Position numbers and translations under genes: made by a program. A stretch of 64,000 nt of DNA from assembly GCA_007121455.1 (NCBI GenBank), contig SKKN01000035.1:124001-188000 (forward strand). The letters run 5' to 3'. The stretch comes from Gemmatimonadota bacterium. Lineage in GTDB: Bacteria > Gemmatimonadota > Gemmatimonadetes > Longimicrobiales > Gaopeijiaceae. How positions within the stretch are numbered: the first letter of the stretch is position 1; every line of letters begins with the position of its first letter. The notes under the pieces are model-generated. The model searched no databases and had not been told where the DNA came from. It worked only from the letters and a program-made list of their open reading frames with translations. Shown piece by piece: positions 22,444-44,954 of this stretch.

Positions 22444-22689
22444 TTGATTGATGTAGAGGAACGAAAGCTCGGGGAGCTTACAATCCGCATCGATCGCCTG
22501 CTGTGCGTCGGATTCGGAGACTGCATCGAGGAAGCTCCGACCGCCTTCGAGTTCGACGATGAGGGGATCGCGGTTTTCCGGGAGAACGCCGCGGCTACGG
22601 AGCCCGGAATCGTGATCGAAGCGTGCCGGTCGTGCCCTGTCGATGCTCTCGAGGTGCTCGCCCCCGACGGCAGCCGAATCGTCCCCTGA
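22444..22689 (+). CDS. Small ferredoxin ([3Fe-4S]/[4Fe-4S] type)
   Basis: 81 residues from a TTG at 22444 preceded by GGGAGG; the reading frame remains open upstream and the start is uncertain. IRIDRLLCVGFGDCIEEAPTAFEFDDEGI gives the first Cys pair (C-x5-C) and EACRSCPVDAL the last Cys-Pro; an extra Cys three residues before it could be a fourth ligand. This is the single-cluster ferredoxin family used as an electron carrier to P450s and radical SAM enzymes. It opens a run of Fe-S-related genes (Mrp, PCP_red proteins, radical SAM), which suggests it supplies electrons to that system. Confidence 0.8.
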   Translation: MIDVEERKLGELTIRIDRLLCVGFGDCIEEAPTAFEFDDEGIAVFRENAAATEPGIVIEACRSCPVDALEVLAPDGSRIVP

Positions 22690-22735
22690 CGCACCTCCTC
22701 TCGCCCCGCGCGACGCGGGCTCCGGAGAATCGGCG

Positions 22736-23680
22736 ATGCGAAAATTCCGTACGTACGGTGAAGTGGAGCACTCGACGGGTTCGGAGCTTCTGGAGCAGGT
22801 GCTCGATCAGCGGGACCGCCTGGCTCGGCGCCTTGCCGAGGTGGGCACGATCGTGGCCGTCGCGAGCGGTAAGGGCGGTGTCGGAAAGAGCGCGGTGACC
22901 GCGAATCTCGCCGTCTCCCTCGCCGCGCGAGGGCACCGAGTCGGTGTGCTGGACGCGGACCTCAACGGACCCTCTCTCGGCCGCATGCTGGGGGTCGTCG
23001 ACGCCGGGCTGGAGGACCGGGCCGACGGAGTGGTGCCGGCCGAGGGCCCGCGAGGGGTCCGCGTGATTTCCATGGAGCTTCTCCAGGACCGGGAAGATGC
23101 GCCGCTGCGCTGGAAGGAACCGAATTCGGACACCTTCCTGTGGCAGAGCAGCATGGAAGCCATGGCCCTGCGGGAGTTCCTCGCGGACGTCGCCTGGGGG
23201 AAGCTGGATTACCTCCTGGTGGACGTGCCCCCCGGAACCGACAAGATCCGGCGTCTCCTCGAGCTGGTTCCGACGCTCCCCGTCGCGCTTCTCGTCTCCA
23301 CTCCCGCGGAAATGTCCCGCGCCGTCGTGCTTCGCTCGATCCGGCTCGTTCGCGAAGCGGGCGTCCCTTCCGTCGCCCTGGTCGCGAACATGACGGAGTA
23401 CCTCTGTCCCGATTGCGGCCATCGCGGAAGCCTCTTCCGGGGAGACGGCGTGCGGCGGCTCGCGGAGGAGTCGGGCCTTCCCATATGGGCAGAGGTTCCA
23501 TTCGACCCCCGCCTCGGCGAAGCGACCGACCGGGGAGTCCCTCCCGCTGCCGAGCAGGCGGCCAACCCGGTGGCGGAAGCATTCGCACGGATCGTGGCTC
23601 GCCTCGAGGAACCCCCCGGACCCGATCATGAGGCGCCCGGCTCTCCCTCCGGCAGTGCCGACCCGGAGACTTCGTCATGA
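22736..23680 (+). CDS. Mrp/NBP35-family P-loop ATPase (Fe-S carrier)
   Basis: 314 residues from the ATG at 22736. ASGKGGVGKSAVTANLA is the deviant Walker A of MinD/Mrp proteins; GVLDADLNGPSLGRMLG and YLLVDVPPGTDKIRRLL are the switch and Walker B segments. A C-x2-C motif in TEYLCPDCGHRGSLF matches the conserved bridging-cluster motif of Mrp. Unlike many Mrp proteins there is no N-terminal DUF59 domain. The ~35-residue N-terminal helix precedes the ATPase directly. Mrp proteins bind and deliver 4Fe-4S clusters in the cytoplasm. It is coupled by ATGA to the PCP_red protein that follows. Confidence 0.9.
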   Translation: MRKFRTYGEVEHSTGSELLEQVLDQRDRLARRLAEVGTIVAVASGKGGVGKSAVTANLAVSLAARGHRVGVLDADLNGPSLGRMLGVVDAGLEDRADGVVPAEGPRGVRVISMELLQDREDAPLRWKEPNSDTFLWQSSMEAMALREFLADVAWGKLDYLLVDVPPGTDKIRRLLELVPTLPVALLVSTPAEMSRAVVLRSIRLVREAGVPSVALVANMTEYLCPDCGHRGSLFRGDGVRRLAEESGLPIWAEVPFDPRLGEATDRGVPPAAEQAANPVAEAFARIVARLEEPPGPDHEAPGSPSGSADPETSS

Positions 23681-24156
23681 AGTTTCTCTGCCTCGAATGC
23701 GACCAGGTGATGGAGTTCGCCGAGCGGCAGATCCCGGGAGACGGCACGCTCGCGGCGGTCTTCGTCTGCCCGGAGTGCGACCGGGAGATGGCACTCCTCA
23801 CGAATCCCATGGAAACCCAGTTCGTGAGCTCCATGGGAGTGAAGATCGGAGGGAGGGAGGTTCCGGCCCAACCGATGGAAGGGATCCGGACTTCGCTCGA
23901 TGAGGGCGGTGAGAAGGCCTTCACCGAGCCGGTGGGTGAGGCGGCCGGGAATGACCCTTCCGTTCCGGCACCTCCGGGAGCCCCGTCCGTCGTCTGGACC
24001 CCCGAGGCGATCGAGCGACTCCAGCGAGTGCCCAGCTTCGTCCGGGGCATGGTCAAGAGGATCTACACCGATTATGCCCGGGAGCGGGGCATCCGCACGC
24101 TCACTCCGGAGACCATGGATACGGCCCGGAGCGACCTCGGCCTCGAAGGAATGTAA
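23677..24156 (+). CDS. Zinc-ribbon protein with C-terminal PCP_red domain
   Basis: 159 residues, overlapping the Mrp gene by ATGA. The N-terminus reads MKFLCLECDQVMEF...FVCPECDREM, two C-x2-C knuckles that can hold Zn or an Fe-S cluster. After a flexible Pro/Gly/Glu linker, residues ~107-157 (VVWTPEAIERLQRVPSFVRG, then TDYARERG) form the three-helix PCP_red domain (PF08369). This domain is best known as the C-terminus of BchB/ChlB, the 57-kDa subunit of light-independent protochlorophyllide reductase. No other Bch gene is present. The same domain ends two further proteins in this locus. The function is unknown; a small helical docking or cluster-binding role is inferred. Confidence 0.82.
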   Translation: MKFLCLECDQVMEFAERQIPGDGTLAAVFVCPECDREMALLTNPMETQFVSSMGVKIGGREVPAQPMEGIRTSLDEGGEKAFTEPVGEAAGNDPSVPAPPGAPSVVWTPEAIERLQRVPSFVRGMVKRIYTDYARERGIRTLTPETMDTARSDLGLEGM

Positions 24157-24157
24157 G

Positions 24158-24529
24158 GTGGAGGACCTCCGCGGTCGGAAGTTCCGGCAGGCCGCATTCG
24201 TATACCTCCACGTTGGAATCCTCTACCTGGCGGCCGTGTGGGCGATGGCCGCCACAGGCGCTCTCCCGGAGGAGAGGGGACCGGTCTGGTTCTGGATCCT
24301 GGTGGGGGTGGCTATTCTCGCTGTCGTCTTCTGGGGCCTCTGGAGCTGGCAGAACGCATGGTTCGCGCGCGTGATCTGGGCGCTCCACGCCCTGCGACTG
24401 CCTGCGCTGATCGAAGGGGCATTCTTTCCGGCCGAGGGCGCGGCGCTCGCACCGTCCTTCTATCTGACGGCGATCGTCGTCGTGGTGATCAACCTCTGGA
24501 TGCTCGCGCGGGCCGCGTGGGACCTCTGA
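24158..24529 (+). CDS. Small integral membrane protein, unknown
   Basis: 123 residues from a GTG at 24158, two bases after the previous stop. Hydropathy by eye gives four membrane helices: FVYLHVGILYLAAVWAM, VWFWILVGVAILAVVFWGL, a middle stretch from WFARVIWALHALRLPALIEGA, and YLTAIVVVVINLWMLARAAW. A conserved-looking His sits in the first helix (YLHVG). I do not recognise the family. It is in one transcription unit with the Mrp and PCP_red genes and is followed by an ABC exporter. Confidence 0.7.
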   Translation: MEDLRGRKFRQAAFVYLHVGILYLAAVWAMAATGALPEERGPVWFWILVGVAILAVVFWGLWSWQNAWFARVIWALHALRLPALIEGAFFPAEGAALAPSFYLTAIVVVVINLWMLARAAWDL

Positions 24530-24545
24530 CGAAACCGGACAGCCC

Positions 24546-25511
24546 GTGAGCCCCGTCGAAAGCTCGGCGGTGGTCCGCGCCGAGGAGATGGCCTTCCGGT
24601 ATCCCTCGGGACGCCGGGGCATCGAACCCACCACACTGGCGGCCCGGCCGGGGGAGATCGTTGCGCTCGTCGGGCCGAACGGTTCGGGAAAATCCACCTT
24701 CCTCCGCCTCCTCGCCACGGACCTCCAGCCGACGGGAGGGCGCCTGAGCCTCCTCGGGACTGACGCGCGGCGCCCTCGGCCGTCCCTTCGCCGGCGCATC
24801 GCATGGGCGGCCGACGAACCCGTGCACCTCGAGGCTCTCTCCGGCGCTGAGAACCTTCGGCTCTTCCTCCAGCTCTCACGACGGGGCGGCTTCCGGGCCC
24901 GGTATGCGGAGGAACTCCTCGACGCCTTCAACCTCTCCGCGGACCGCAACGTCCCGGTGAGCGAGTACTCCTTCGGCATGGGCAGAAAGCTTCTGCTCAC
25001 CGAGGTTCTGGCCGCCGAGCCGGAACTCCTCCTCCTCGACGAACCCACCGTGGGCCTCGACCCACCCGGCATCGCCGCGCTCCGGAAGGAGGTGAGAAGG
25101 GCCGCCGCGCGCGGGGCGAGCGTCTTCATCGCCACCAACGAAATCGTCGAGACGCCTCTGATGGCCGACCGAATCGTTTTTCTTCACGAGGGGCGCCCCC
25201 TGGCGGACGGGGCCCCTGCGAAGCTCCTGAACGAGGTGCGAGGGCGCACCAGGATCACGATCGATGTGACCGGGGAGCTCGAAACCCTCCCGGCGATGCC
25301 CGACATCGAGTCGCTGCACGTGCAACCCGGCCGCGTGGTGGCGGAGAGCTCGAGGGGGACCCGAGCCCTCCCACGGCTCCTCGAGGCGCTGATCGAAACG
25401 GGAACGTCGATCCGCGAGATCCAGGTGAGAGAGCCGAATCTCTCCGACGTCTTTCGCCGACTCTCCGGCGTCGAGCTCGACACGGATCGAGCTGAGAGGG
25501 GGGCCGAGTGA
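24546..25511 (+). CDS. ABC transporter ATP-binding protein (ABC-2 exporter type)
   Basis: 321 residues from a GTG at 24546. Walker A is GPNGSGKST and Walker B LLLLDEPTVGLD. The signature motif, usually LSGGQ, reads YSFGMGRKLLL, which is a degenerate form found in some ABC-2 ATPases. NEIVETPLMADRIVFLHEG stands where the His switch normally is, with Asn-Glu in place of the usual H-D. The ~80-residue C-terminal domain (RTRITIDVTGELETLPAMPD) is like that of ABC-2 exporter ATPases of the DrrA/CcmA group. It pairs with the membrane protein encoded next (4-bp GTGA overlap). The substrate is unknown; heme or a maturation intermediate is conceivable from context only. Confidence 0.85.
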   Translation: MSPVESSAVVRAEEMAFRYPSGRRGIEPTTLAARPGEIVALVGPNGSGKSTFLRLLATDLQPTGGRLSLLGTDARRPRPSLRRRIAWAADEPVHLEALSGAENLRLFLQLSRRGGFRARYAEELLDAFNLSADRNVPVSEYSFGMGRKLLLTEVLAAEPELLLLDEPTVGLDPPGIAALRKEVRRAAARGASVFIATNEIVETPLMADRIVFLHEGRPLADGAPAKLLNEVRGRTRITIDVTGELETLPAMPDIESLHVQPGRVVAESSRGTRALPRLLEALIETGTSIREIQVREPNLSDVFRRLSGVELDTDRAERGAE

Positions 25512-26233
25512 CGCGCTTTCCGATCTGGGGACTCGAGTGGCGCCTGGGGCTCCGAAGGCGGAGGCTCTTCGTCCTGAACGTGACGATCCCGCTTCTCCTC
25601 GTCGTCCCGCTCATCGCGGCGGGGGCGCCGGCATTTCACTCGGCGGCCGCGATCACCGTCCTCTTCGTGCTCTTCGGAATCTTCGGCTCCGCGATCCCCC
25701 TCCTCCGGGACGGCGAAGGGGGAATTCTACGCCGCTTCGTGCTGACGGGTGGTTCGGAAGGGGGGATCCTCACCCAGCGCCTTCTCGCCTCTGCCTGCCT
25801 CGACTTCCTCCAGCTCCTCCCCTCCCTCGCGGTCGTGCTCCTGGCGGGCGAAGGCTCCATCTGGCCCCTGGCGGCAGCGATCCTCTTCCCCAGCCTCCTC
25901 GCGGCGAACCTGATCGGCGCCTGGGTCGCGGCAGGCGCACGCTCCTTGGCCGAAGGCGCGCTTTTTGCGGCCGTGACGGGGCTATTCCTCCTCCACGGAT
26001 CGGGAGTGTTTCGGACCGCGACGCCCGGAACGGCCGGGGCGCTGCTCGAGACGTGGCTTCCCTTCGGACCCCTGCACCGCACGCTCCTCGCCGCCACGGG
26101 TGGCGGCCCACCCCCCGCCGAGCCCCTCGTGGCGATCATGCTCCCGCTGAGCTCGGGAGCCGTCCTTCTCCTCGTGACCGGCCTTTTCGCGCGATTCCTG
26201 ATCGAGCGGATCGCCCCCGCCATACGCCCCTGA
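25508..26233 (+). CDS. ABC-2 type transporter permease
   Basis: 241 residues from a GTG at 25508. Six membrane helices are evident, starting LNVTIPLLLVVPLIAAG and ending SGAVLLLVTGLFARFLIERI, as expected of ABC-2 or CcmB-like permeases. The amphipathic N-terminus (WRLGLRRRRLF) would contact the ATPase. It is the last gene of the unit beginning with the ferredoxin. A strong promoter for the next unit starts 30 bases after its stop. Confidence 0.82.
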   Translation: MTRFPIWGLEWRLGLRRRRLFVLNVTIPLLLVVPLIAAGAPAFHSAAAITVLFVLFGIFGSAIPLLRDGEGGILRRFVLTGGSEGGILTQRLLASACLDFLQLLPSLAVVLLAGEGSIWPLAAAILFPSLLAANLIGAWVAAGARSLAEGALFAAVTGLFLLHGSGVFRTATPGTAGALLETWLPFGPLHRTLLAATGGGPPPAEPLVAIMLPLSSGAVLLLVTGLFARFLIERIAPAIRP

Positions 26234-26263
26234 CATCCACGTTCAGGTCGCGGGAAACCCAAG

Positions 26264-26292
26264 TTGACAGCCCGTGAATCGCCGGATATACT
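26264..26292 (+). promoter_or_regulatory. Near-consensus sigma-70 promoter
   Basis: TTGACA at 26264-26269 and TATACT at 26287-26292 are separated by exactly 17 bases. This is a perfect -35 and a five-of-six -10, rare in this GC-rich window. Transcription would start near 26299, running into the UspA/radical SAM/oxidase gene series. Confidence 0.75.
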
Positions 26293-26670
26293 GGCCATTC
26301 GGTGGAGTCGACCTTCAGTGGTCGATCGTGGGATTCGGTGCCTTCGGGTACCCCATACATGAAGCTCGGTCTCTCGCAGGCGGAGAGGTCGGGTCCGTAC
26401 AAAACAATCTGCTCATGCGACCCCGAAGCCGAACGGCCAGGGGTCCTCGGATTCGCCTCCCCAGGGGGAGGAGGATCCAGATAAGAACGCGAGAGGGCGA
26501 GACCTACTCGTCCCCCCTTTCGCACCCGGATCTGCGCCAAGCCTCCTCAGGGAGGAGTATTCCCGACGGACGATCGTCGGTATAGGGCCCCGCTCGGTCC
26601 CAGGCTTGGGATCGTGGGCTCGGTGCGGCCATTCGGTGTGCAGGGGGCAGATTCGGACCCGACGACCGAG
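26293..26670 (+). other. Long untranslated leader of the UspA-PCP_red gene
   Basis: About 370 bases separate the predicted transcription start from the ATG. No credible gene lies here. Local hairpins are visible: TCGACC/GGTCGA near 26308-26325, CCTCC/GGAGG near 26542-26555, CCGACG/CGTCGG (26563-26568 with 26575-26580) and TCCCA/TGGGA (26598-26611). None matches a riboswitch class I know. A leader of this length can carry post-transcriptional control. Confidence 0.5.
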
Positions 26671-28707
26671 ATGCGCATGTACCGAGAGGTCTTCGTCCCC
26701 GTCGACAACTCCTCCCACTCCCACTGGGCAGTGGACCGCGCCATCGAGATCTGCAAGAGATCCGAAGGGCGCATCACCGGCAATCACGTCTACGCCGCAC
26801 GCCTGCACGATGTCCGCTTTCGCCAGTTGGAAACGGGCCTCCCCGCCCAGTTCCAGACGGACGAGGAGATCAAGCGGCAGCGGAAAATCCACGACAAGTT
26901 GATCGAGAAGGGGCTCCAGCTCATCTCGGACTCCTTCCTCGACCAGACGGAGAAGCGGTGTCGTGAGGCAAACGTGCCGCTGACTCGTCAGCTCCTCGAA
27001 GGCATCAACTTCGAAGAGATCATCCTCGAGGCGAGCAAGGGGGCCGGCCGGCTCCCGAGCCTGATCGGCTTCGACGCCAACATCGCGGACAAGTACGACG
27101 GCGGCGAGCACGTACGAAGCGACGTCCAGCTGGGAGAGGACGGCCGCATCGTGGCGGAGGACGAGGAGCAGGACGAGAAGCTCGCCGGACAGAGCGGACG
27201 TGAGTACGACCTCGTCTGCATCGGAGCCCATGGGATCGGGAAGCAGCCTTACTCACAGCTCGGCGGGGTCGCGTCCCGGGTCATCCGGAAGGTCGAGAAG
27301 GACACACTCGTCATCCGGGACGACCAACCGCTCGAGGGCGGCCGCTGGATGGTCTGCGTGGATGGCTCCTCCTACTCGTACAAGGCGATGAGAAAGGCGC
27401 TGGAGATGGCGCGGGAGTATGGCGCCAAGCTCTACGTATGCTCGGCCTTCGACGTCGAGTACCACCACGTGGTCTTCGGGAACATCAAAGACGTCCTCTC
27501 CGCTCAGGCCGCCAAGGTCTTCAAGTTCGAAGAGCAGGAAGAGCTCCACAACAACATCATCGACAAAGGGCTCCTGAAGCTCTGCCAGGCGAACCTCAAG
27601 CGGGCCGAGGTCATGGCACAGGAGTTTCCCGATGTCGAGATGCAGACGCAGATCCTCATCGGAAAGCCCTTCCAGTGCATCCTCCAGTGGGTCGAGGAGG
27701 TGGAGCCCAGCCTCCTCATCGTCGCTCGCCATGGCGGCCACCGGATCGACGGCACGGAGATGGGTTCACAGGCGGACAACCTCAGCCGCCTCACCCCCAC
27801 GAACGTCCTGCTCGTAGGCACCCAGGACGTGCGCGCGGACGAGATTCCCTGGATCGAAGAGGACGGGGAACAGGGGCTCGAATGGGCCCCCGACGCGGAA
27901 GTGCGAATCCTGAGAGTGCCCCCGTTCGCGCTCGGCATCGCCCGCAAGGCAGTCGAAGAGTTCGTGGTGGAGCACTACGCCTCGAATGGAAACGGGAACG
28001 GAAACGGCAGCGGCCCCAACGGCGCAGCGGTCCTTCCGACCGTCACGAACGAGCGGCTCGACGAGGCGATCCGCAAGCTCCTCCCCACGCACATGCAGAT
28101 CGTGATGGGGATCGGCACGGCGGAAGAGATGGCGATGGCCGAGGTGAAGGCGGACGAAGCGATGAAGCGCACCGTCGTGGAGGGGCACGACTCCGACCCG
28201 GAGCCGGAGACGCCCATGATCTCCACGAAATGCCCCTACACGCATCACGTCCAGACCCGTGAGCGGACGGCGGCGGACCCGGTCGTATGGACCCAGGAAG
28301 CGTTCCAGCGGCTGAAGACCGTCCCCCTGATCGCCCGTCCGCTGGCCCGAAACACCGTGGAGCGGTTCGCCAAGGAGCACGGCTTCTGGCGTGTCACGAC
28401 ACGCGTAATGGACGAGAACAAGCAGGCGATGATCGAGGCGGACGAGTTCGACATGGACACGATGCTCGTGATGTTCAAGGAACTCCAGACCAAGCAGGTC
28501 AAGGCCGCTGCCGAAGGAGGGGACGCCCTGAGCCCCGAGATGCGGAAATTCATCGACGAGGCGAAGGCCCAGGGGGTCACGCGCTGCCCCATCCGTGACA
28601 TGGAACAGCAGGCCGACGCCTGTCCGATGGACTTCAAGACCGCTACGCCGGAGGAGGCGAAGGCAGCCGTCGAGCAGTTCATGAACCAAGAGAAGGACGG
28701 CAAGTGA
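26671..28707 (+). CDS. Tandem universal stress protein with C-terminal PCP_red domain
   Basis: 678 residues from the ATG at 26671; an in-frame ATG at 26677 and a GTG at 26614 are alternatives. Two UspA-like domains are present. The first starts YREVFVPVDNSSHSHWAVDRA and ends LVCIGAHGIG...GGVASRVIRK...TLVI. The second starts WMVCVDGSSYSYKAMRKALE and ends LIVARHGGHR...NLSRLTPTNVLLVG. The first carries a long charged insertion. After a Gly/Asn-rich linker a third region (VVWTQEAFQRLKTVPLIARP, residues ~535-590) matches the PCP_red domain of the neighbours. A Cys-containing tail (CPIRDM, ACPMDF) follows. UspA domains bind ATP or AMP; the role here is unknown. GTGA overlap couples it to the radical SAM gene. 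Confidence 0.82.
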   Translation: MRMYREVFVPVDNSSHSHWAVDRAIEICKRSEGRITGNHVYAARLHDVRFRQLETGLPAQFQTDEEIKRQRKIHDKLIEKGLQLISDSFLDQTEKRCREANVPLTRQLLEGINFEEIILEASKGAGRLPSLIGFDANIADKYDGGEHVRSDVQLGEDGRIVAEDEEQDEKLAGQSGREYDLVCIGAHGIGKQPYSQLGGVASRVIRKVEKDTLVIRDDQPLEGGRWMVCVDGSSYSYKAMRKALEMAREYGAKLYVCSAFDVEYHHVVFGNIKDVLSAQAAKVFKFEEQEELHNNIIDKGLLKLCQANLKRAEVMAQEFPDVEMQTQILIGKPFQCILQWVEEVEPSLLIVARHGGHRIDGTEMGSQADNLSRLTPTNVLLVGTQDVRADEIPWIEEDGEQGLEWAPDAEVRILRVPPFALGIARKAVEEFVVEHYASNGNGNGNGSGPNGAAVLPTVTNERLDEAIRKLLPTHMQIVMGIGTAEEMAMAEVKADEAMKRTVVEGHDSDPEPETPMISTKCPYTHHVQTRERTAADPVVWTQEAFQRLKTVPLIARPLARNTVERFAKEHGFWRVTTRVMDENKQAMIEADEFDMDTMLVMFKELQTKQVKAAAEGGDALSPEMRKFIDEAKAQGVTRCPIRDMEQQADACPMDFKTATPEEAKAAVEQFMNQEKDGK

Positions 28708-30122
28708 CCGACGGCCTTCCGGAACGAAGGCTTCCCACCCTCCCGGTGGGGAACGAATCGCGAATCGGCGAGGCCGGATCCGTTGCATTCGAGCCCTTCT
28801 TCCGTTCTGCCGCCCCCCGATTGGAAGACGGAGAGGCCGACACGTTCGTCCCTCACGTGGTGGCATGGAACCTCACGAAGCGGTGCAACCTGGCGTGCGC
28901 GCACTGCTACATCTCCGCAGGATCGTGGCATGCCGCGAAAGACGAGCTCTCCACGAGCGAATGCCGCCGGATCCTGGACGAGATCCTGGAGCTGAACGCG
29001 AGCCCCATGCTCATCCTCTCCGGAGGCGAGCCTCTCCTGCGGGAGGATCTCGAAGAGCTGGCGAGCCACGCTTCGTCCGCCGGCGCGACGGTCGTGGTGG
29101 GAACGAACGGAACCCGGCTCACGAGCGAGCGGATCGACTCACTCATGGAAGCCGGTGTCCAGGGGGTGGCGGTGAGCGTCGACTCCCTCCGAGCGAGCTA
29201 TCACGACCGCTTCCGGCACGGGGGGGGAGCCCTCCACGATACGCTCGCCGCCGTGGACCGCCTGGGTGCGCATGGGCTGGACTTCGTGGTCCAGACGTCC
29301 CTCACGCGTGGAAACCGTCACGAGCTTCGGGAACTGGTGGGATGGGCGGAGGGGAAGGGCGCCCTCTCCTTCAACCTCTACTTCCTCGTGGCCACCGGCC
29401 GGGGCGAAGGAATGACCGGTTTGTCTCCGGAGGAGAATGAGGAGGTTCTCGCGGAGCTGGCGGAGCTCGAGGCGGAGTACCGTGGGCGAATGATGGTTCG
29501 CTCGAAGTGCCAGCCCCAAATCATGCGCCACGTCGTGGACGGGCACGGAGACTCCCCCCTTCTCAACTACCGGACGCGATGTCCCTGCGGAATCCACTAC
29601 TGCAGGATCACCCCCGAGGGAAAGGTCACTCCCTGCCCTTACACCCCGATCGTCGCCGGTGACCTGCGAGAGCAGGCTTTCTCCGACATCTGGCGGGACT
29701 CCACCCTCTTCCACACGATCCGGCACGGCGAGCTCGGAGGGAAGTGCGGACGCTGCGAGTACCGCGAGGTCTGCGGAGGGTGCAGGGCGAGAGCGCACTC
29801 CGAGAGCGGCGACATTCTCGGCCCCGATGAATCGTGCGCCTACGAACCGTCGGGGGACCGGCCCCTGGTTCGCACCGAGCGCGAGATCACCTACGGGTCC
29901 ATCCACGAGGAGACCCTGCCCTGGACGGACGAGGCCCGCGACCGGATCGCTCGAGTACCCAGCTTCGTCCGGGGGGTGGTCACCGCCAGGGTCGAGGGGT
30001 TCGCAAGGGACAGAGGATACCGACAGGTCGACGTGGAGGTGATGGCGGAGGTACGGCGGAGCCTCCCGGTGGACTTCTCTCAGAAGCTTCCCTTCTTCCT
30101 CCGAAAGGGTGGGGACGCGTGA
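28704..30122 (+). CDS. Radical SAM/SPASM protein with C-terminal PCP_red domain
   Basis: 472 residues from a GTG overlapping the preceding stop. WNLTKRCNLACAHCYISAGS carries C-x3-C-x2-C for the SAM-binding 4Fe-4S cluster (first Cys about residue 61), and LILSGGEPLL is the GGE motif. Residues ~290-385 form a Cys-rich SPASM region (CPCGIHYCRITPEGKVTPCP..., KCGRCEYREVCGGCRARAH) of the type found in the NirJ/AhbC/AhbD heme-biosynthesis enzymes and peptide maturases. Residues ~405-455 (LPWTDEARDRIARVPSFVRG) are PCP_red. The domain fusion and the heme proteins encoded downstream suggest modification of a tetrapyrrole or of a protein in the same complex; this is inference. Confidence 0.88.
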   Translation: MTDGLPERRLPTLPVGNESRIGEAGSVAFEPFFRSAAPRLEDGEADTFVPHVVAWNLTKRCNLACAHCYISAGSWHAAKDELSTSECRRILDEILELNASPMLILSGGEPLLREDLEELASHASSAGATVVVGTNGTRLTSERIDSLMEAGVQGVAVSVDSLRASYHDRFRHGGGALHDTLAAVDRLGAHGLDFVVQTSLTRGNRHELRELVGWAEGKGALSFNLYFLVATGRGEGMTGLSPEENEEVLAELAELEAEYRGRMMVRSKCQPQIMRHVVDGHGDSPLLNYRTRCPCGIHYCRITPEGKVTPCPYTPIVAGDLREQAFSDIWRDSTLFHTIRHGELGGKCGRCEYREVCGGCRARAHSESGDILGPDESCAYEPSGDRPLVRTEREITYGSIHEETLPWTDEARDRIARVPSFVRGVVTARVEGFARDRGYRQVDVEVMAEVRRSLPVDFSQKLPFFLRKGGDA

Positions 30123-30148
30123 ACGGTCAGAGCGGAGGGGATGGGCGG

Positions 30149-31966
30149 GTGAACGTCAAAGACCTCTTGTTGGAACGAAAAGGCTGGATCGTCGCTCTGC
30201 TCGCGGTCGGCGGGATGCTCCTCCTGGCCTTTCCGCTCGTCGCTCAATACTCGGTACCTGAATACGGCGACGACTTCCCCCTGATCGGGAGTCGGGCCGC
30301 CGTATGGATCGCGGCGCAGGTTCACCTGATGTTCGCCGCGTTCGTTCTCGGAGTCCCGATGTTCGCGGTGATCGCCGAAGCCGTCTCCATTTTCGGCAAA
30401 CAGGACCGCTACGACCGTCTCGCGAAGGAGTTCACCCGACTCCTCCTGGTGGCCTACAGCGCGACGGCGCTCTGGGGCGGCCTCCTCCTCTTCCTCCTCA
30501 CCACGCTCTACCCGACCCTCTGGAGCTACCTTGCCGAGATCTTCGGCGCTTCGATGTGGGTCTACGCCGGGCTCTTTTTCATCGAGTCCGCGACCCTCTA
30601 CACCTACTACTACACGTGGGAACGATGGAAGAGGGGCCGGGCCAAGCTCTTCCACTGGGGGCTCGGGATCCTCCTCAACGTCTGGGGCACGACCGTGATG
30701 TTCATCGCGAACTCGTGGCTCACGTACATGACGAGTCCCCCGGCCGACGTCACTCCGGATACGGCCCCCGGGATGGTGCAGTTCTGGAGCGCGTTCGCCA
30801 ATGCGACGTGGATGCCGATCAACATTCATCGATTGATCGCGAACGCCGTCTTCGGGGGCGCGATCGTGGCGGCCTACGCCGCGTACCGATTCCTCAAGGC
30901 GAAAACGCCCGAAGAGCGGGCGCATTACGACTGGATGGGATACGTCGGAAACCTCATCGCGATCGGGGTCTTCCTCGTCCTTCCCTTCGCCGGCTACTGG
31001 TTGGGCCGGGAGATCTACGAGTACAACCAGCAGATGGGCATCACGATGATGGGCGGCTTCATGAGCTGGCTCTGGATCGTCCAGGCGTTCCTCATCGGGG
31101 TCCTCTTCCTCGCCGCGAACTACTACCTGTGGATCGGCCTGGGCCGGATTCCCGGAGGCGAGCGTTTTGCCCCCTACACGAAGTACATGCTCGTCGTGCT
31201 CGTGCTCGGGTTCATCGTCTGGGCGACGCCGCACTCGATGATCGCCACTCGGGACGAGCTCGCCGCGATGGGGGGTACGCACCATCCCTTCCTCGGTGTC
31301 CTCGGGCTGATGAGCGCCAAGAATACGGCGGTCAACCTCATGATCCTGACCACGTTCCTCTCCTTCCTCATGTACCGGAGAGCGAACAAGATTCCGACGG
31401 TGTCGTGGGCACGCACGGGCACGATCTCCCAGGGGACGATCCTCGCCGTCGCGTCGATCGTGGTTCTCTTCTACGGAGTCTATGGCTACTTCGTCCCCAC
31501 GATCGTCCGGATCGGCTTCTCGGTCTACCAGGTCCTGATCGTCCTCTTCACGATCGTCGCGGTCCTCGTGATCGATGTCCTCATCGCGCGGGGAGCGGAT
31601 ACCCGCGGCCCGATCCGCTGGGGGCAGATGCCCGAACGCTCGCAATACGCCCTCTTCGTCATCGTCGTGACCTTCACGTGGCTCATGGGCCTCATGGGGT
31701 TCGCCCGGAGTGGGATCCGCCAGCACTGGCACATCTGGGAAGTCATGCGGGACACGTCGCCTCATGCCGCTACGCCCGCGCTGGGATACGCGGCTCAGGT
31801 CATCAGCGTCTGCGTCATCCTCTTCCTCCTGATGATCGCGTTCGTCTTCTGGATCGGAGGCCTGATCGAGAAGCCTCAGCTCGTTCCGCAGGAGACGGAG
31901 GACACGGACGCCGCGGAGCTCGGACCGGGCTACGAACCGAGCCTGCAACCCGCAACCGGGGATTGA
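30149..31966 (+). CDS. Cytochrome bd-like oxidase subunit I (no CydB partner)
   Basis: 605 residues from a GTG at 30149 (GGAGG ten bases upstream); a GTG at 30119 that overlaps the radical SAM stop is an alternative. The first half aligns by eye with CydA. IAAQVHLMFAAFVLGVPMF has the N-terminal heme His (about residue 59), FFIESATLYTYYYTWERW the conserved Glu (about 146), NSWLTYMTSPP the CydA N-x-W motif, and NIHRLIANAVFGGAIVAAYAAY the second heme His (about 227). I do not find the GW-x3-E-x-GRQPW quinol loop, and the C-terminal half adds further helices unlike CydA. No subunit II gene follows; three cytochrome c genes do. It may take electrons from cytochrome c and reduce O2 or another acceptor such as NO. 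Confidence 0.8.
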   Translation: MNVKDLLLERKGWIVALLAVGGMLLLAFPLVAQYSVPEYGDDFPLIGSRAAVWIAAQVHLMFAAFVLGVPMFAVIAEAVSIFGKQDRYDRLAKEFTRLLLVAYSATALWGGLLLFLLTTLYPTLWSYLAEIFGASMWVYAGLFFIESATLYTYYYTWERWKRGRAKLFHWGLGILLNVWGTTVMFIANSWLTYMTSPPADVTPDTAPGMVQFWSAFANATWMPINIHRLIANAVFGGAIVAAYAAYRFLKAKTPEERAHYDWMGYVGNLIAIGVFLVLPFAGYWLGREIYEYNQQMGITMMGGFMSWLWIVQAFLIGVLFLAANYYLWIGLGRIPGGERFAPYTKYMLVVLVLGFIVWATPHSMIATRDELAAMGGTHHPFLGVLGLMSAKNTAVNLMILTTFLSFLMYRRANKIPTVSWARTGTISQGTILAVASIVVLFYGVYGYFVPTIVRIGFSVYQVLIVLFTIVAVLVIDVLIARGADTRGPIRWGQMPERSQYALFVIVVTFTWLMGLMGFARSGIRQHWHIWEVMRDTSPHAATPALGYAAQVISVCVILFLLMIAFVFWIGGLIEKPQLVPQETEDTDAAELGPGYEPSLQPATGD

Positions 31967-31976
31967 GGAGAGGGAG

Positions 31977-32783
31977 ATGTCGAGCGTCGACCTGAAGATC
32001 GTACTGGTGACCGTGATTACGATCGCCGCATATACCCTGGTGGCGAACATCATCCCGCAGGTGCAGTCCGACGTTCCGGAGGACATCGCCTTCGGCGCGG
32101 ACGTGACGTCCGAGGAGCTGGTCGACGCAGGCCGAAGCTTGTATGAAGGGGCGGGAGGGTGCCTTGCGTGCCATACGGAAGCCGGCGGCGCCCGGGGACC
32201 GAACCTGCTCACGGGCCATGACGGTGAGGGTGCGATCGGAGAGCGGTGCGAAGATCGCATCGCGGACCTGGACTGCAAGGACTATCTCTTCAGGGCACTG
32301 GTCGATCCGGGCGCATACGTGGTGGAGGGATATCCTCCCATCATGCCTCCGACGGACCGGACGCTGACGACACCTCAGGTCTGGGCCATCGTGGCGTACC
32401 TGGAGTCCCTGGGTGGGGAGGTGACCGTGACGGGAGATGACCTGGCACAGGCCGAAGAGGAGACCGCACAACCCGCCGCTGCTCCCAACGGGGAGCAAGC
32501 CGCAGCACCGGCCGTAGCCACCGACGACGCCGAAGCGATTCTCCAGGACCTCTGCCTCATGTGCCACCAGATGGGTGATCGGGGGACCGAGATGGGCCCC
32601 TCGTTCGACGAGGTCGGAGCACGACTCACCGCCTCGGAGATCCGCACGAAGATCCTGCATCCGGACCAGCTGATCTCCGAGGGCTACGAGCCCCTTGCCG
32701 GCGTGATGCCCTCCAACTTCGGGAGCCAACTCACTGCAACGCAGCTCGAATCGATCGTGCAGTACCTGAGCGCGCTTCGCTGA
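31977..32783 (+). CDS. Membrane-anchored diheme cytochrome c
   Basis: 268 residues, ten bases after the bd-like gene. One N-terminal membrane helix (LKIVLVTVITIAAYTLVANI) is followed by two heme-binding C-x2-CH sites: GGCLACHTEAGG in the first domain and LCLMCHQMGD in the second. The domains are joined by an Ala/Pro/Glu linker. Met ligands are likely in YPPIMPPTDR and GVMPSNF. It probably sits on the periplasmic face and relays electrons to or from the bd-like protein. Confidence 0.88.
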   Translation: MSSVDLKIVLVTVITIAAYTLVANIIPQVQSDVPEDIAFGADVTSEELVDAGRSLYEGAGGCLACHTEAGGARGPNLLTGHDGEGAIGERCEDRIADLDCKDYLFRALVDPGAYVVEGYPPIMPPTDRTLTTPQVWAIVAYLESLGGEVTVTGDDLAQAEEETAQPAAAPNGEQAAAPAVATDDAEAILQDLCLMCHQMGDRGTEMGPSFDEVGARLTASEIRTKILHPDQLISEGYEPLAGVMPSNFGSQLTATQLESIVQYLSALR

Positions 32784-32798
32784 CGGGGAGTGGGAAGA

Positions 32799-33578
32799 AT
32801 GCGAAAAAATCTCCAGGAACCGTTCTGGCAGGCCCTGATCGTTCTCGCGATCAGCTACGTCCTGCTCAAGTGGGGAATCCCGTACATCCCCCCGCTCATC
32901 GGGGTCTCCAGCGCTCCCGTCCCCCAGAGCGTCCTCGTGCAGTTCATGCTCACGGTCGCCGTCGGCGTTCTCGTCTGGGTGAGCGACAACGAGGAGCGGT
33001 GGCGGAGGTTCAAGCAGCCGATCCGGGAGGCGCTGGTGCTTCCCGAGCGGAAGCGGGTCCGCGTCGCCCTACTCGTGCTCCTTCCTCTCCTCGTGGGCTT
33101 CGTCACGTACGACACGGTTCGTCCGCGCGTCGATGCGCCGGCAGGCATCCGCGCCGTCCATCCGGCGCCGCCCACACAGATCGATTTCCGGGGCGAGCCG
33201 GTGCGCATCGAAGGTGCGGAGAACCCGCTGCGCGAAGAGGGGCGGATCGAGGAAGCGCGAGAGAGGGGCTTCGACATCTACTACCAGAGTTGCATGCCGT
33301 GCCACGGTGACTACCTGGACGGACAGGGCCACTTCGCACATGGCTACAGCCCGGCTCCGCTGACCCTGCGGGGAGGGAGCACGATCGCGCAGCTCACCGA
33401 GAGCTACGTCTTCTGGAGAATCGCGAAGGGGGGCCCGGGCCTGCCACGGGAAGGCAATCCCTGGAACTCGGCCATGCCCGCATGGGAGGACTTTCTCACC
33501 GAGGAGGACATCTGGGCCGTGACCCTCTTCCTCTACGAGCAGGCGGGCATCTCGCCCCGAACGTGGGAGGAGCATTGA
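32799..33578 (+). CDS. Membrane-bound monoheme cytochrome c
   Basis: 259 residues from the ATG at 32799; GTG 32790 is an in-frame alternative. Three membrane helices come first (FWQALIVLAISYVLLKWGI, VLVQFMLTVAVGVLVWV and VALLVLLPLLVGFVTY). A periplasmic cytochrome c domain follows with YQSCMPCHGDYLDGQGHFA and a Met in NSAMPAWEDFL as the likely sixth ligand. The multi-helix anchor fused to a class I cytochrome c is like membrane cytochromes that dock in respiratory complexes. The stop overlaps the next start (TGATG). Confidence 0.85.
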   Translation: MRKNLQEPFWQALIVLAISYVLLKWGIPYIPPLIGVSSAPVPQSVLVQFMLTVAVGVLVWVSDNEERWRRFKQPIREALVLPERKRVRVALLVLLPLLVGFVTYDTVRPRVDAPAGIRAVHPAPPTQIDFRGEPVRIEGAENPLREEGRIEEARERGFDIYYQSCMPCHGDYLDGQGHFAHGYSPAPLTLRGGSTIAQLTESYVFWRIAKGGPGLPREGNPWNSAMPAWEDFLTEEDIWAVTLFLYEQAGISPRTWEEH

Positions 33579-35176
33579 TGCGCGTGCACACGGCCATGAC
33601 GACCCTCGCGTTGGCGGCCGTCTTCGTCGCCTGGCCCGCCGGGGCCCAGGACGGGGACCTGGCCAGGGGGCAGGAGGTCTATGATCGGTGGTGCGCCTCC
33701 TGCCACGGGTTCGACGGCGCCGGGGAGGGACCCGCCGCGGCGTACATGCTCCCCCGTCCCCGGGACTTCACGGGTGGGCTCTACCAGATCCGCACCACGA
33801 CGGGGGGCGAGTTGCCGACCGACGATGACATCCTTCACGTCATCGACGAGGGGATGCCCGGCACGACCATGCCCGGATGGCAGGATCAACTCTCCCGAGC
33901 AGACCGGCGCGCTCTCGTAGCGTACCTGAAGAGCTTCTACCCCGGCTTCGAGACCTTCGGCGCCCCCGAACCGGTCTCGATCGGGCGTGCCGGACGCGCG
34001 TCCGAAGATCGCCTCGCGGAGGGGCGGATGTTTTACGACTCGATCGAATGCTGGCAGTGCCACGGAGGGCTCGGAAGGGGGGACGGATCTTCGGGTCCGA
34101 CTCTGGAGGATGATTGGGGCTACCCGATCCGCGCCGCCGACCTCACGCAGAACTGGAGGTTCAGTGGAGGGGGGAGCGTCGAGGACATCTACCGCCGAAT
34201 CCTCACGGGCATGGACGGAACACCGATGCCGGCCCACGCCGACCTGATCGATGCCGGCTTCATGGACGAGGAACAACTCTGGAGCGTCGCCCACTACGTG
34301 CGAAGCCTTTCCCCGGAACGCGTTCCCCGCGTCCGGGAAGTGGTCCGCGTGGAGCGGCGCGAGCCGGGCGAGGTGCCGAGCACCGTGCACGATGAGCGGT
34401 GGGAGGATGTGGATTCGTTCTACATCCCGCTGGTCGCGCAGATCATCATAGAGCCTCGCTGGTTCGATCCCTCCGTCAACACCGTCTGGGTCCAGGGAAT
34501 CCATGATGGAGAGGAGCTCGCCCTGCGCCTCAGTTGGAGCGACCGGACCCGAAGCCCCGACCCGGAGTGGAGCGACTTCCAGGCGAGGGTCATCGATGTC
34601 ATGGAACCGAAGGAAGGCGATCCTGTGGAGCCGGGGCCGTTGCCGGATGGGATCACGCTCCAGTTCCCGACGAACATCCCCGACGGCACGGAGCGCCCCT
34701 ACTTCCTGATGGGCGACTCCCGCAATCCAGTCTATCTCTGGCAGTGGCGAAGCGACCAGGAGGGAGTGGAGGCTGCGACGGCCCAGGGGATGCGCGAGAT
34801 CCAGCCCCTCTCCGGCCGAACCATCGACGTCGATGCCCACTGGGAGGATGGCCTTTGGCAGGTCGTTCTCCGGGCTCCTTTTACCGCGGAGGACCCTAGA
34901 AACGAAGTCGAGTTCGAAGTAGGACGACCGATTCCGATCGCGTTCTACGCGTGGGACGGTGACCACGGGGAAGAAGGGACCCGGGGCTCGATCGGCTCGT
35001 GGTACTTCATCCATCTGGAGGAGGAGACCCCCGCGGCCGTCTACGTGGCACCCCTCGTAGCCGGGCTCTTCACCGTGGGACTCGGTCTTTTCGTGATCGC
35101 TCGGGCCCAGAGACGGGAGCGCCTGTCCTCCGAGGCGAACGGGCATGAGGAAGTGAGTACGACGACCACCGCATAG
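33578..35176 (+). CDS. Diheme cytochrome c fused to ethylbenzene dehydrogenase-like heme b domain
   Basis: 532 residues with a signal peptide (MRVHTAMTTLALAAVFVAWPAGA). Two cytochrome c domains carry WCASCHGFDGAGEG and ECWQCHGGLGRGDG. From about residue 290 a beta-rich domain (SFYIPLVAQIIIEPRWFDPS, VQGIHDGEELALRLSWSD, IPIAFYAWDGD) resembles the heme b-binding EB_dh domain of ethylbenzene dehydrogenase gamma subunits and NxrC-like proteins. It ends in a membrane helix (APLVAGLFTVGLGLFVIARA). The chain could carry electrons over three hemes from a periplasmic donor. No molybdoenzyme subunit is encoded nearby, so the usual partner is missing. Confidence 0.85.
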   Translation: MRVHTAMTTLALAAVFVAWPAGAQDGDLARGQEVYDRWCASCHGFDGAGEGPAAAYMLPRPRDFTGGLYQIRTTTGGELPTDDDILHVIDEGMPGTTMPGWQDQLSRADRRALVAYLKSFYPGFETFGAPEPVSIGRAGRASEDRLAEGRMFYDSIECWQCHGGLGRGDGSSGPTLEDDWGYPIRAADLTQNWRFSGGGSVEDIYRRILTGMDGTPMPAHADLIDAGFMDEEQLWSVAHYVRSLSPERVPRVREVVRVERREPGEVPSTVHDERWEDVDSFYIPLVAQIIIEPRWFDPSVNTVWVQGIHDGEELALRLSWSDRTRSPDPEWSDFQARVIDVMEPKEGDPVEPGPLPDGITLQFPTNIPDGTERPYFLMGDSRNPVYLWQWRSDQEGVEAATAQGMREIQPLSGRTIDVDAHWEDGLWQVVLRAPFTAEDPRNEVEFEVGRPIPIAFYAWDGDHGEEGTRGSIGSWYFIHLEEETPAAVYVAPLVAGLFTVGLGLFVIARAQRRERLSSEANGHEEVSTTTTA

Positions 35177-35201
35177 CAACTCGAATAGGAGGAGATCGAC
35201 C

Positions 35202-36122
35202 ATGCAAGGCACGAGAAGTCTGATCCGAATTGGAGCGCCCGCACTGCTCCTCGCCGTAGCCGTCGCCTGTGGAGACGACGCGCCGGACGGCCCCCCACCG
35301 GGCACACCGGCCGAGATGCCCTTCGACGAAGGCACCGCCGGCGATGTGCAAGGGAGCGTCGTCTTCGAGGGCACGCCCCCTTCGCCGGAGCCGCTCGACA
35401 TGGCTTCGGAGCCGGACTGCGCCGCGATGTACGACGAGACGCCGACGCGGGACCTCATCAAGGTGAGCGGGGACGGGCAGCTCGGGGACGTCTTCGTGTA
35501 CGTGAGCGAAGGCCTCGAGGACATGCAGTTTCCGATCCCCGAGGAAGGAACCGTGATCGATCAGCAGGGCTGCCGTTACATCCCACACATAACCGGCGTC
35601 ATGGCGAACCAGACGTTCGTGCTGCGCAACTCCGACGGCCTCCTCCACAACATCAATGCGAGACCGGAGGTGAATCGTCCGTTCAACATCAGCCAGCCGG
35701 TGAACATGGATACGGAGCGGACCTTCGCTCAGCCGGAGGTGATGATCCCCCTTCGCTGCGACGTCCACGGGTGGATGATCAGCTATGTGGGAGTGGTGGC
35801 GCATCCCTATCACTCGGTTTCCGGGGACGATGGGTCGTTCGACCTCAGCACGCTCCCCCCGGGGGAGTACGTTGTGACGGCGTGGCACTCCCAGCTCGGC
35901 ACCCAGGAGCAGACGGTCACGGTCGAGACGGGTGAGGTTGCCGAGATCGCCTTCACCTTCGATGAGGGGATGCTCGCCCATGCCGACGTGCCGATGGCCG
36001 ACCCGATCGATCCGCACGACCACCACCATCCCCTCGACGTCCGGGCCCGGCGGCTCGCCCAGGATGGTCACGGGACGCACGAGCACGGAGGCCATGTCGC
36101 GGGGCCGATGGGGCCTCGCTGA
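35202..36122 (+). CDS. Cupredoxin-like lipoprotein
   Basis: 306 residues; AGGAGG (35187-35192) lies nine bases before the ATG. A lipoprotein signal ends in LLLAVAVACGDD. The middle has a plastocyanin-like fold with NSDGLLHNINARPEVNRPFN (His ligand) and PLRCDVHGWMISYVGVV (Cys, His and Met ligands), consistent with a type 1 copper site. A C-terminal carboxypeptidase-regulatory-like beta-sandwich (VSGDDGSFDLSTLPPGEYVV) and a His-rich tail (DPHDHHHPLD, HGTHEHGGH) follow. It could shuttle electrons between the cytochromes upstream and the oxidase downstream; the His-rich tail may bind Cu. Confidence 0.85.
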   Translation: MQGTRSLIRIGAPALLLAVAVACGDDAPDGPPPGTPAEMPFDEGTAGDVQGSVVFEGTPPSPEPLDMASEPDCAAMYDETPTRDLIKVSGDGQLGDVFVYVSEGLEDMQFPIPEEGTVIDQQGCRYIPHITGVMANQTFVLRNSDGLLHNINARPEVNRPFNISQPVNMDTERTFAQPEVMIPLRCDVHGWMISYVGVVAHPYHSVSGDDGSFDLSTLPPGEYVVTAWHSQLGTQEQTVTVETGEVAEIAFTFDEGMLAHADVPMADPIDPHDHHHPLDVRARRLAQDGHGTHEHGGHVAGPMGPR

Positions 36123-36213: not shown

Positions 36214-36969
36214 ATGAACTGGCTGCTCGACCCCTCGTTTTCGACCTTCGGACCCGATATCGATCGGCTTTACTACATCATCCTGGTCATCACGGGGCTG
36301 GTCTTCGTCCTCACCGAATTCCTCCTCTTCTACTTCCTCTTCAAGTACCGCAAGAAAGAGGGCCGGAAGGCGGAATACAGCCATGGGAGCACGAAAGCCG
36401 AGGTGATCTGGACACTCATCCCGTTCGTGATCGTCGTCGCCATCGGGCTCATGAGCGTCTCCGTCTGGGATCAGATCAAGAACCCGGTCGAGTTCCCGAA
36501 CCCGGACTATGAAATCATCGTGTCGGCCCGCCAGTTCGAGTGGGACGCGATTTATCCGGGAGCTGACGGAGAGCTCGGAACGGAGGACGATTTCACGGTA
36601 CTCAACCGAATCCATGTGCCGGTGAACGAACCCATCCTGGTCCACCTCGAAGCGGAGGACGTGATCCACTCCTTCTTCGTTCCCGATTTCCGCCTGAAGC
36701 AGGATGCCGTCCCGGGCATGACGATCCCCGTCTGGTTCGAAGTCACCGAGCCCGGCGAGTACATTCTCGGCTGCGCGGAGCTTTGCGGCATCGGACACTA
36801 CCGGATGGACGGGATGATCGTCGTCCTGACGGCCGAGGAGTACCGGGAGTGGGAAGCGGGCCAGATCGCATTCCACTCCGGTGAGAGGAGCCCGGACGAG
36901 GGAGACGTGGTCGCCTCGCGCGGAGACGAAGAGGATTCGGACGAGACGCAGGACACGGGCGGTCCATGA
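36214..36969 (+). CDS. coxB: Cytochrome c oxidase subunit II
   Basis: 251 residues from the ATG at 36214. Two transmembrane helices (LYYIILVITGLVFVLTEFLLFY and AEVIWTLIPFVIVVAIGLM) flank a cytoplasmic loop. The periplasmic cupredoxin domain has the binuclear CuA site, HSFFVPDFRLKQDAVPG and then CAELCGIGHYRM (C-x3-C-x3-H-x2-M). Unlike the second subunit II at 45-46 kb there is no fused cytochrome c; the acidic C-terminal tail ends the protein. It receives electrons from a soluble donor, possibly the cytochromes or cupredoxin encoded just upstream, and passes them to subunit I. Confidence 0.95.
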   Translation: MNWLLDPSFSTFGPDIDRLYYIILVITGLVFVLTEFLLFYFLFKYRKKEGRKAEYSHGSTKAEVIWTLIPFVIVVAIGLMSVSVWDQIKNPVEFPNPDYEIIVSARQFEWDAIYPGADGELGTEDDFTVLNRIHVPVNEPILVHLEAEDVIHSFFVPDFRLKQDAVPGMTIPVWFEVTEPGEYILGCAELCGIGHYRMDGMIVVLTAEEYREWEAGQIAFHSGERSPDEGDVVASRGDEEDSDETQDTGGP

Positions 36970-37012
36970 TGCCCGATCCCGGTGATCTAGACGCGAGCCC
37001 CATCGAACGGAC

Positions 37013-38806: not shown

Positions 38807-38819
38807 GAGGAAGCACAAG

Positions 38820-39455
38820 ATGAGTCAGGCAGCCACGATGCCGATCGAGGAGCGAGCACCGGAGCCCGGGCTGGGGATCTACAACCTCAAGCTGGGAATC
38901 TGGATCTTCCTCCTGTCGGAGGTGATGTTCTTCACCGCCCTGATCGGAAGTTACGTCATTCTCCGGTTCGCTCACCCCGACCACTTCGCCGCGCCCGGAG
39001 AGGTCCTGAACGTCCCGCTCACCGCCGTCAACACCTTCATCCTGATCTGCTCCTCGGTGACGATGGTGAAGGCGTACGCAGCGATCGAAAAGGACGACCA
39101 GAAGGGGCTGAAGCAGTGGCTCCTCGCCACAATCGTGCTCGGAAGCACGTTCGTGGGGGTGCAGGTCTACGAGTACATCCATCTGGTCAACGACGGGTTC
39201 GTCCCTGATGCGCAGGCATATGTCGAGTCCGGTCTGGCCGGCGGCCCGCTCTACAGCTCCACCTTCTACCTGATGACCGGGTTCCACGGGGTACACGTGG
39301 CGCTCGGCGTGGGCGCCCTCATCTTCATCCTGATCAAGGCGATGAGAGGAGCCTACTCTTCCCAGCGCCTCGGAGGGGTCGAGGGGGTGGGCCTGTACTG
39401 GCACTTCGTGGACCTGGTCTGGATCGTGCTCTTCACGATCGTCTACCTGATCTGA
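38820..39455 (+). CDS. coxC: Cytochrome c oxidase subunit III
   Basis: 211 residues, 13 bases after the subunit I stop. Five helices, with NLKLGIWIFLLSEVMFFTAL (the conserved Glu-Val-Met-Phe segment), YLMTGFHGVHVALGVGAL and GLYWHFVDLVWIVLFTIVYL, all diagnostic of the family. It stabilises subunit I and the proton uptake path. There is another copy at 42.4-43.0 kb with moderate similarity. Confidence 0.95.
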   Translation: MSQAATMPIEERAPEPGLGIYNLKLGIWIFLLSEVMFFTALIGSYVILRFAHPDHFAAPGEVLNVPLTAVNTFILICSSVTMVKAYAAIEKDDQKGLKQWLLATIVLGSTFVGVQVYEYIHLVNDGFVPDAQAYVESGLAGGPLYSSTFYLMTGFHGVHVALGVGALIFILIKAMRGAYSSQRLGGVEGVGLYWHFVDLVWIVLFTIVYLI

Positions 39456-39536
39456 GTTCGGTTTCGGCTCGACGCCCCCTTTCGCCGGGCCACCGAGCCA
39501 CGCACGTTGAACGAAACGAAGACAAGGAGCGTCGTC

Positions 39537-42052: not shown

Positions 42053-42066
42053 GACACCCGGAGGAG

Positions 42067-42423: not shown

Positions 42424-42433
42424 CGTTCCCCCA

Positions 42434-43021: not shown

Positions 43022-43084
43022 ATCGTCGAGTCCATTCCGCCGTAACGTGGTCGCTTTCGCCCGTCTCGAATCCGGGAGTCGCCA

Positions 43085-44917: not shown

Positions 44918-44954
44918 GAGCTCAATCTCTCGTGGCTGAGGGCATGGCCATGGA

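Follow-up and report, generated by a model that had tools for sequence, protein, structure and literature searches.

The gene run studied here lies on the forward strand of the window, the stretch of 64,000 nucleotides that was analyzed, and extends from a gene for a single-cluster ferredoxin (starting at 22444) to the genes of a caa3-type oxidase (ending at 39809). Table 1 lists its genes with the abbreviations used below.

Table 1. Genes of the run, with positions in the window and the matches or motifs on which the assignments are based
Feature	Position	Strand	Matches and motifs
Ferredoxin, single [4Fe-4S] cluster	22444..22689	+	PF13459 Fer4_15 40.7 bits, PF13370 37.9 bits
Mrp/NUBPL-type P-loop ATPase (Mrp)	22643..23680	+	PF10609 228 bits; kept in locus
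Zinc-ribbon protein with C-terminal PCP_red (ZnPCP)	23677..24156	+	PF08369 53.1 bits; two CxxC pairs
Small membrane protein	24158..24529	+	no Pfam match
ABC ATPase	24546..25511	+	PF00005 91.6 bits
Second ABC gene, probable permease	25508..26233	+	no family match
Tandem Usp protein; two PCP_red copies at the C-terminus, the first of them partial (Usp-PCP)	26671..28707	+	PF00582 107 bits; PF08369 53.4 bits
Radical SAM/SPASM enzyme with C-terminal PCP_red (rSAM-PCP)	28704..30122	+	PF04055, PF13186, PF08369
Cytochrome bd-family subunit I-like membrane protein (bd-like protein)	30149..31966 (start 30119 possible)	+	PF01654 74 bits
Diheme c-type cytochrome (c1)	31977..32783	+	two CXXCH; PF13442
Membrane-anchored monoheme cytochrome c (c2)	32790..33578	+	one CXXCH; PF13442; conserved
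Diheme cytochrome c fused to EB_dh heme-b domain (c3EB)	33578..35176	+	PF09459 59 bits, TIGR03477 97 bits
Secreted protein, carboxypeptidase-regulatory-like fold (CarbP)	35202..36122	+	PF13620 32.8 bits
caa3-type cytochrome c oxidase CoxB, CoxA, CoxC, CoxD	36214..39809	+	COX2, COX1, COX3 Pfam matches

The order ferredoxin, Mrp, ZnPCP, Usp-PCP, rSAM-PCP, bd-like protein, c1, c2, c3EB, CarbP, CoxB, CoxA and CoxC was found, as far as the contigs reach, in each of 20 loci taken from further genomes of the same phylum (here termed the home phylum), and the conservation of the gene set, for which a preliminary description of this DNA had proposed a check, was thereby established. The ferredoxin gene is placed after that of ZnPCP in some home-phylum families; it was seen in most of the 20 loci, and the cases in which it is missing fall at short contigs. 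This protein probably passes electrons to the radical SAM enzyme, and Mrp, the true start of which is probably near 22736, is a presumed Fe-S carrier; the Fer4_15 and PF10609 matches agree with the preliminary description, which had placed both proteins in this run. In ZnPCP, the segments MKFLC...C and W...FVRGMVK are invariant among 18 orthologs. Homologs of the small membrane gene are common among the 20 loci but not present in all. The preliminary description had also included an ABC exporter: an ATPase and a probable permease are indeed present in the window, but the pair occurs in a minority of the 20 loci, and the exporter was therefore rejected as a component of the module.

Downstream of the bd-like gene, c1 follows directly in 20/20 home-phylum loci. 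The three c-type cytochrome genes confirm the earlier assignment of such proteins to this position; the last of them, a conserved gene with two CXXCH motifs, is fused to a domain of the EB_dh/DMSO-reductase type II gamma kind. CarbP accompanies the bd-like gene in most loci, those of Poribacteria and Brocadia among them. The conserved unit extends beyond 36122 into the caa3-type oxidase genes, which keep the same order where contigs reach. A second cytochrome c oxidase set, with COX1 at 43085-44917, is located on the minus strand of the window (41225-46184) and faces the first.

The preliminary description had noticed a sequence pattern shared by the C-termini of the zinc-ribbon, Usp and radical SAM/SPASM proteins and had attributed it to PCP_red. 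An hmmscan search with PF08369 (curated cut-off of 32.5 bits) detected the domain above this cut-off in all three proteins, namely, at residues 107-151 of ZnPCP (53.1 bits), in two stretches of the Usp protein (53.4 bits, the best at residues 540-584) and at residues 407-451 of rSAM-PCP (51.2 bits). The number of three proteins was thus correct, but the copies number four, since the Usp gene encodes one at 27883-27972, which is partial and under the cut-off (22.5 bits), and another at 28288-28422. A search of the whole genome (3.5 Mb) returned just these four matches, all at this locus and within about 6 kb, so their grouping is not a matter of chance. Comparison of HMMs with solved structures matched the PCP_red regions to the C-terminus of BchB, which is part of a tetrapyrrole-binding enzyme, and this homology makes a tetrapyrrole-related role of the domain plausible. 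The domain can be far more abundant elsewhere: Nitrospira genomes contain about 12 matches each, some Nitrospirota proteins consist almost wholly of four tandem PCP_red domains (e.g., L196:18664-19671 and L214:7933-8994), and in Brocadia and another planctomycete the radical SAM enzyme is fused to three of them (L089:9938-12028 and L088:9995-11881).

Several features link rSAM-PCP to enzymes of heme synthesis. Its cysteines form a CX3CX2C motif starting at C61 and a CX2CX5CX20C motif starting at C348, all of which are invariant in 21 orthologs, and they correspond exactly to the signature of AhbD, defined as CX3CX2C plus a C-terminal CX2CX5CX20C (PMC3942049). The protein nevertheless scored under every NCBIfam cut-off, with 281.4 bits for TIGR04545 (AhbD) and 281.6 bits for TIGR04055 (NirJ2), each against a cut-off of 500 bits; a relative from Sporomusa (L112) passes the NirJ2 cut-off with 534 bits. 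In a tree of 114 proteins, the PCP_red-containing radical SAM enzymes and one truncated relative form a single clade (SH-aLRT 99), the neighbors of which are NirJ2 and AhbD/NirJ2-like proteins of methanogens, and the wider AhbD/NirJ2 group has a support of 96. Seven Nitrospirota genomes encode, beside rSAM-PCP, a second AhbD-like radical SAM enzyme that lacks PCP_red. Two of these were scored and reached 444-447 bits for AhbD, below the cut-off of 500, versus 292-297 bits for rSAM-PCP of the same genomes; the higher scores of these paralogs speak for a separate job of rSAM-PCP. The AlphaFold model of the enzyme (pLDDT 77.7) matches PqqE and peptide maturases, leaving the substrate undecided, and PqqE, SkfB and SuiB rank closest among solved structures in sequence as well as in fold. 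As there is no solved structure of AhbD or NirJ among the matches, fold matches to peptide maturases are to be expected.

The bd-like protein, also recognized in the preliminary description, passes PF01654 over residues 48-570 (cut-off 26.2 bits); its gene is in another frame than the long ORF at 30304-31995. The ligands in CydA are His19 for heme d, His186 and Met393 for heme b558, and Glu445 for heme b595 (PMC8585947). In an alignment with 39 relatives of more than 500 residues, the equivalent of His19 is H59 of the window protein, kept in 38/39, and that of His186 is H227, kept in 39/39, while the region of Met393 was not alignable. No acidic residue equivalent to Glu445 precedes the RQxW motif in this family, and its place is taken by near-invariant Met, Arg and His residues; the family-specific M513, M516 and H528 of the window protein are candidates for standing in for Glu445. 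The AlphaFold model is weak (pLDDT 64) and is of use at the family level only, at which the ten best Foldseek matches were all bd oxidase subunits I. No CydB gene was recognized between the radical SAM gene and CoxB of the window locus, and in the 20 loci this interval has an identical gene content. In a Nitrospira locus (L198:5803-9812), the bd-like gene is preceded by two multi-helix genes that resemble, by eye, a split cytochrome b.

The presence of the bd-like gene closely follows that of PCP_red. Among 200 home-phylum genomes, the window genome included, 51 possess a bd-like gene; all 51 contain PCP_red, and the gene was found in 0/128 PCP_red-negative genomes. Another 21 genomes have PCP_red but no bd-like gene, most of them with one or two matches in frames of 530-660 amino acids, and the matches in most of these genomes are expected to correspond to BchB. 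When the cassette is counted as at least three PCP_red matches, it is present in 50/51 genomes with the bd-like gene as compared to 1/149 without. Two of the 21 genomes (G016 and G159) have radical SAM, ZnPCP and Mrp genes and no detectable bd-like gene, on short contigs. Presence and absence of the bd-like gene and the cassette also vary within home-phylum families, and the genera g11 and g15 each have one member with both and another with neither.

Similar data were obtained for Nitrospirota, where PCP_red is present in 64/64 genomes with the bd-like gene, which was found in 0/69 PCP_red-negative genomes, and for Planctomycetota, with 15/15 and 0/178, respectively, the sporadic large-genome members of the latter phylum carrying either both or neither. 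For the three phyla and 544 genomes, all 130 genomes with a bd-like gene are thus PCP_red positive, and 0/375 PCP_red-free genomes contain the gene; the p values of Fisher tests range from 1e-19 to 1e-31 across the surveys, but they ignore kinship, and shared ancestry inflates the counts. The preliminary description had considered that its proposal would fall if PCP_red genes and the bd-like oxidase did not occur together, and the opposite was found. Twelve Nitrospirota genomes with the bd-like gene, six of which have only one or two PF08369 matches, were rechecked with a radical SAM profile; all 12 gave a strong match, each full-length radical SAM enzyme read has a C-terminal PCP_red, and most are located beside a Usp gene.

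A scan of bacteria and archaea based on the radical SAM alignment identified enzymes with PCP_red in Poribacteria, Planctomycetota including Brocadia, Nitrospinota, Nitrospirota, Myxococcota, Hyphomicrobiales, Chromatiales and others. The link between rSAM-PCP and the bd-like protein spans at least nine phyla, with nitrite oxidizers and anammox bacteria among the carriers, and includes loci in which the genes are unlinked; the radical SAM gene is often not adjacent to the bd-like gene, except in the home phylum, in Bacteroidota and in Myxococcota. A bacteroidotal contig (L098) contains the entire locus, its radical SAM enzyme having a weak PCP_red (21 bits), and in a rokubacterial one (L158) the radical SAM gene runs off the contig and adjoins a Usp-PCP gene. 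Usp-PCP adjoins the radical SAM gene in many loci of other phyla, and in the anammox bacterium Brocadia it is found inside the run of bd-like and cytochrome c genes. A bd relative is encoded by 13/15 genomes of other phyla with rSAM-PCP but by 2/13 genomes with radical SAM enzymes lacking PCP_red, a comparison that is confounded because the latter are mostly anaerobes; in one of these two, the radical SAM gene ends at a contig edge. Genes of the rSAM-PCP type without a bd match were seen in two MAGs (G208 and G211) and two Nitrospirota genomes (G229 and G235).

Heme genes surround rSAM-PCP in distant lineages. In a myxococcotal locus (L093), HemY and CtaB enclose the run that contains the radical SAM gene, and in one of Hyphomicrobiales (L096) this gene adjoins HemY; the HemY and CtaB proteins pass the TIGR00562 and TIGR01473 cut-offs. 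A home-phylum locus (L215) continues into CtaB, HemQ, HemE, HemH and HemY. HemQ was identified in 48/51 home-phylum genomes with the bd-like gene versus 41/149 others, often on the same contig at a distance of 8-27 kb. Since nearly all genomes with the bd-like gene have HemQ, they use the coproporphyrin-dependent route. For the same reason, the replacement of HemQ was rejected as the sole function of rSAM-PCP. Two further observations concern these contigs: HemQ (coproheme decarboxylase) ends in a fused Rieske-type ferredoxin domain in two home-phylum loci (L215:4869-5945 and L218:16052-17200), and the Hyphomicrobiales locus opens with genes (L096:482-4927) that resemble, by eye, a diheme peroxidase and an arsenite/iodate oxidoreductase pair.

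With regard to the respiratory chain, bc-type cytochrome b is rarer in home-phylum genomes with the bd-like gene (16/51) than in the others (96/149). NrfD-family genes, which from paired matches may be read as alternative complex III, are present in all 51; the bd complex thus need not replace complex III, an option that had been considered.

Gene content, domain families, gene order, co-occurrence in three phyla, the radical SAM clade, its cysteine signature and the neighboring heme genes were observed, and on this basis we lean slightly towards the view that the locus encodes a module dedicated to modifying heme for, or delivering it to, a bd-family complex linked to cytochrome c. The ferredoxin and Mrp would provide electrons and Fe-S clusters to the AhbD/NirJ2-type radical SAM enzyme, which would change a side chain, of the propionate or vinyl type, of coproheme or heme drawn from the coproporphyrin-dependent pathway. 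PCP_red, common to the radical SAM, zinc-ribbon and Usp proteins, would keep the partners or the tetrapyrrole together, and the product would enter the bd-like complex, which would exchange electrons with cytochrome c. We infer this chemistry, the role of PCP_red and the use of the product by the bd-like protein from the genes and their relatives. The preliminary description had proposed the maturation of an unusual heme or of an Fe-S cofactor. Its tetrapyrrole part gains from the position of the radical SAM clade among AhbD/NirJ2 and from the heme genes flanking it in distant lineages; its Fe-S part gains no support, because a role in serving the radical SAM enzyme accounts just as well for Mrp and the ferredoxin, and the docking function that it gave to PCP_red is hypothetical. 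No module of this kind is known for canonical bd oxidases, although they contain heme d, and this counts against a heme module for the bd-like complex.

The main rival reading, which we consider unlikely, is that rSAM-PCP is an ordinary oxygen-independent coproheme decarboxylase with the function of AhbD, supplying plain heme b under the same low-oxygen conditions that call for the bd-like oxidase, with PCP_red as an accessory. The exact AhbD signature (PMC3942049) would fit this function, as would the HemQ-containing, and hence coproporphyrin-dependent, genomes; AhbD genes are known alongside hemY, hemH and hemQ (PMC10548856), a context like that of the rSAM-PCP loci, which keeps this reading alive. 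However, the same HemQ already performs the coproheme step in 48/51 genomes, seven Nitrospirota have in addition the AhbD-like enzymes without PCP_red that outscore rSAM-PCP in the two cases read, the clade is a separate one, and so strict a coupling to a single oxidase family is not expected of a general heme enzyme.

It is still less probable that the PCP_red and Usp proteins help to assemble or regulate the bd-cytochrome c complex and that the radical SAM enzyme modifies a protein residue in the manner of SPASM peptide maturases. The SPASM domain, PqqE, SkfB and SuiB as nearest solved structures and the Usp-PCP gene in the anammox bd operon agree with this proposal, but the structural matches are those expected where AhbD and NirJ are missing from the comparison, the clade nests in a heme-synthesis group, and no candidate for a precursor peptide came to notice when the 20 loci were read. 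Finally, the association might reflect lineage history, with the genes inherited or moved jointly as a respiratory island that has no shared function. The block-wise inheritance of the home locus and the internal relatedness of the Nitrospira and anammox lineages are compatible with this, but the link persists across at least nine phyla where genes are unlinked, the bd-like gene and the cassette vary jointly within home-phylum families and in the two genera mentioned above, and in the sporadic large-genome Planctomycetota the two occur together or not at all, so that we regard this reading as very improbable.

Within the preferred reading of a heme module for the bd-like complex, a more specific version is that the radical SAM-PCP_red proteins make an undescribed heme, altered in its ring or side chains, for a bd-like complex that lacks the b595 glutamate. 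We put this version forward tentatively and with some doubt; the product may possibly be ordinary heme b made without O2. If an undescribed heme is indeed made, nitrite oxidizers, anammox bacteria and the phylum of the window would have a heme of unknown type in their respiratory chains, and the handling of tetrapyrroles by PCP_red would be general instead of limited to chlorophyll. The co-occurrence itself moves PCP_red from chlorophyll biosynthesis into respiration in at least nine phyla and singles out a clade of heme radical SAM enzymes without an assigned reaction. Literature searches returned no title or abstract that links a PCP_red/radical SAM module with a bd-like protein.

Comparison with known systems places the locus next to, and apart from, several of them. 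The DPOR subunit BchB has a homologous C-terminal PCP_red of 45 residues (PDB 2xdq, 3aek and 8vqi; NMR domains 2kru and 2l09), but the proteins of the locus lack its nitrogenase-like body; BchB/BchN nitrogenase-like domains were not found in them, and the match to BchB is confined to its last ~60 residues (39 bits against a cut-off of 490). AhbD (TIGR04545) belongs to the same radical SAM group, with an identical cysteine signature and heme-gene neighbors, whereas rSAM-PCP scores below its cut-off, adds a C-terminal PCP_red, forms a separate clade and coexists with AhbD-like enzymes and HemQ. The heme d1 enzymes NirJ and NirJ2 (TIGR04051 and TIGR04055) are the nearest grouping in the tree and have the same auxiliary cluster motif, but rSAM-PCP remains below the cut-off (281.6/500) and carries PCP_red, and no nir genes were noticed in the loci read. 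The bd-like protein shares with CydA (PF01654) a family match above the cut-off, the equivalents of His19 and His186 and the RQxW motif; it differs by the missing Glu445 equivalent, the absence of CydB from the 20 loci and the three linked c-type cytochrome genes. Its close relatives in Nitrospira and Nitrospina, recognized by similarity, suggest a link to the OR-N CydAA' branch. In the literature, the OR-N bd-like proteins of these genera appear among the putative terminal oxidases, their function being unproven (PMC10839748, PMC12342949), and the strictly co-occurring radical SAM/PCP_red module offers a concrete handle on their heme content.
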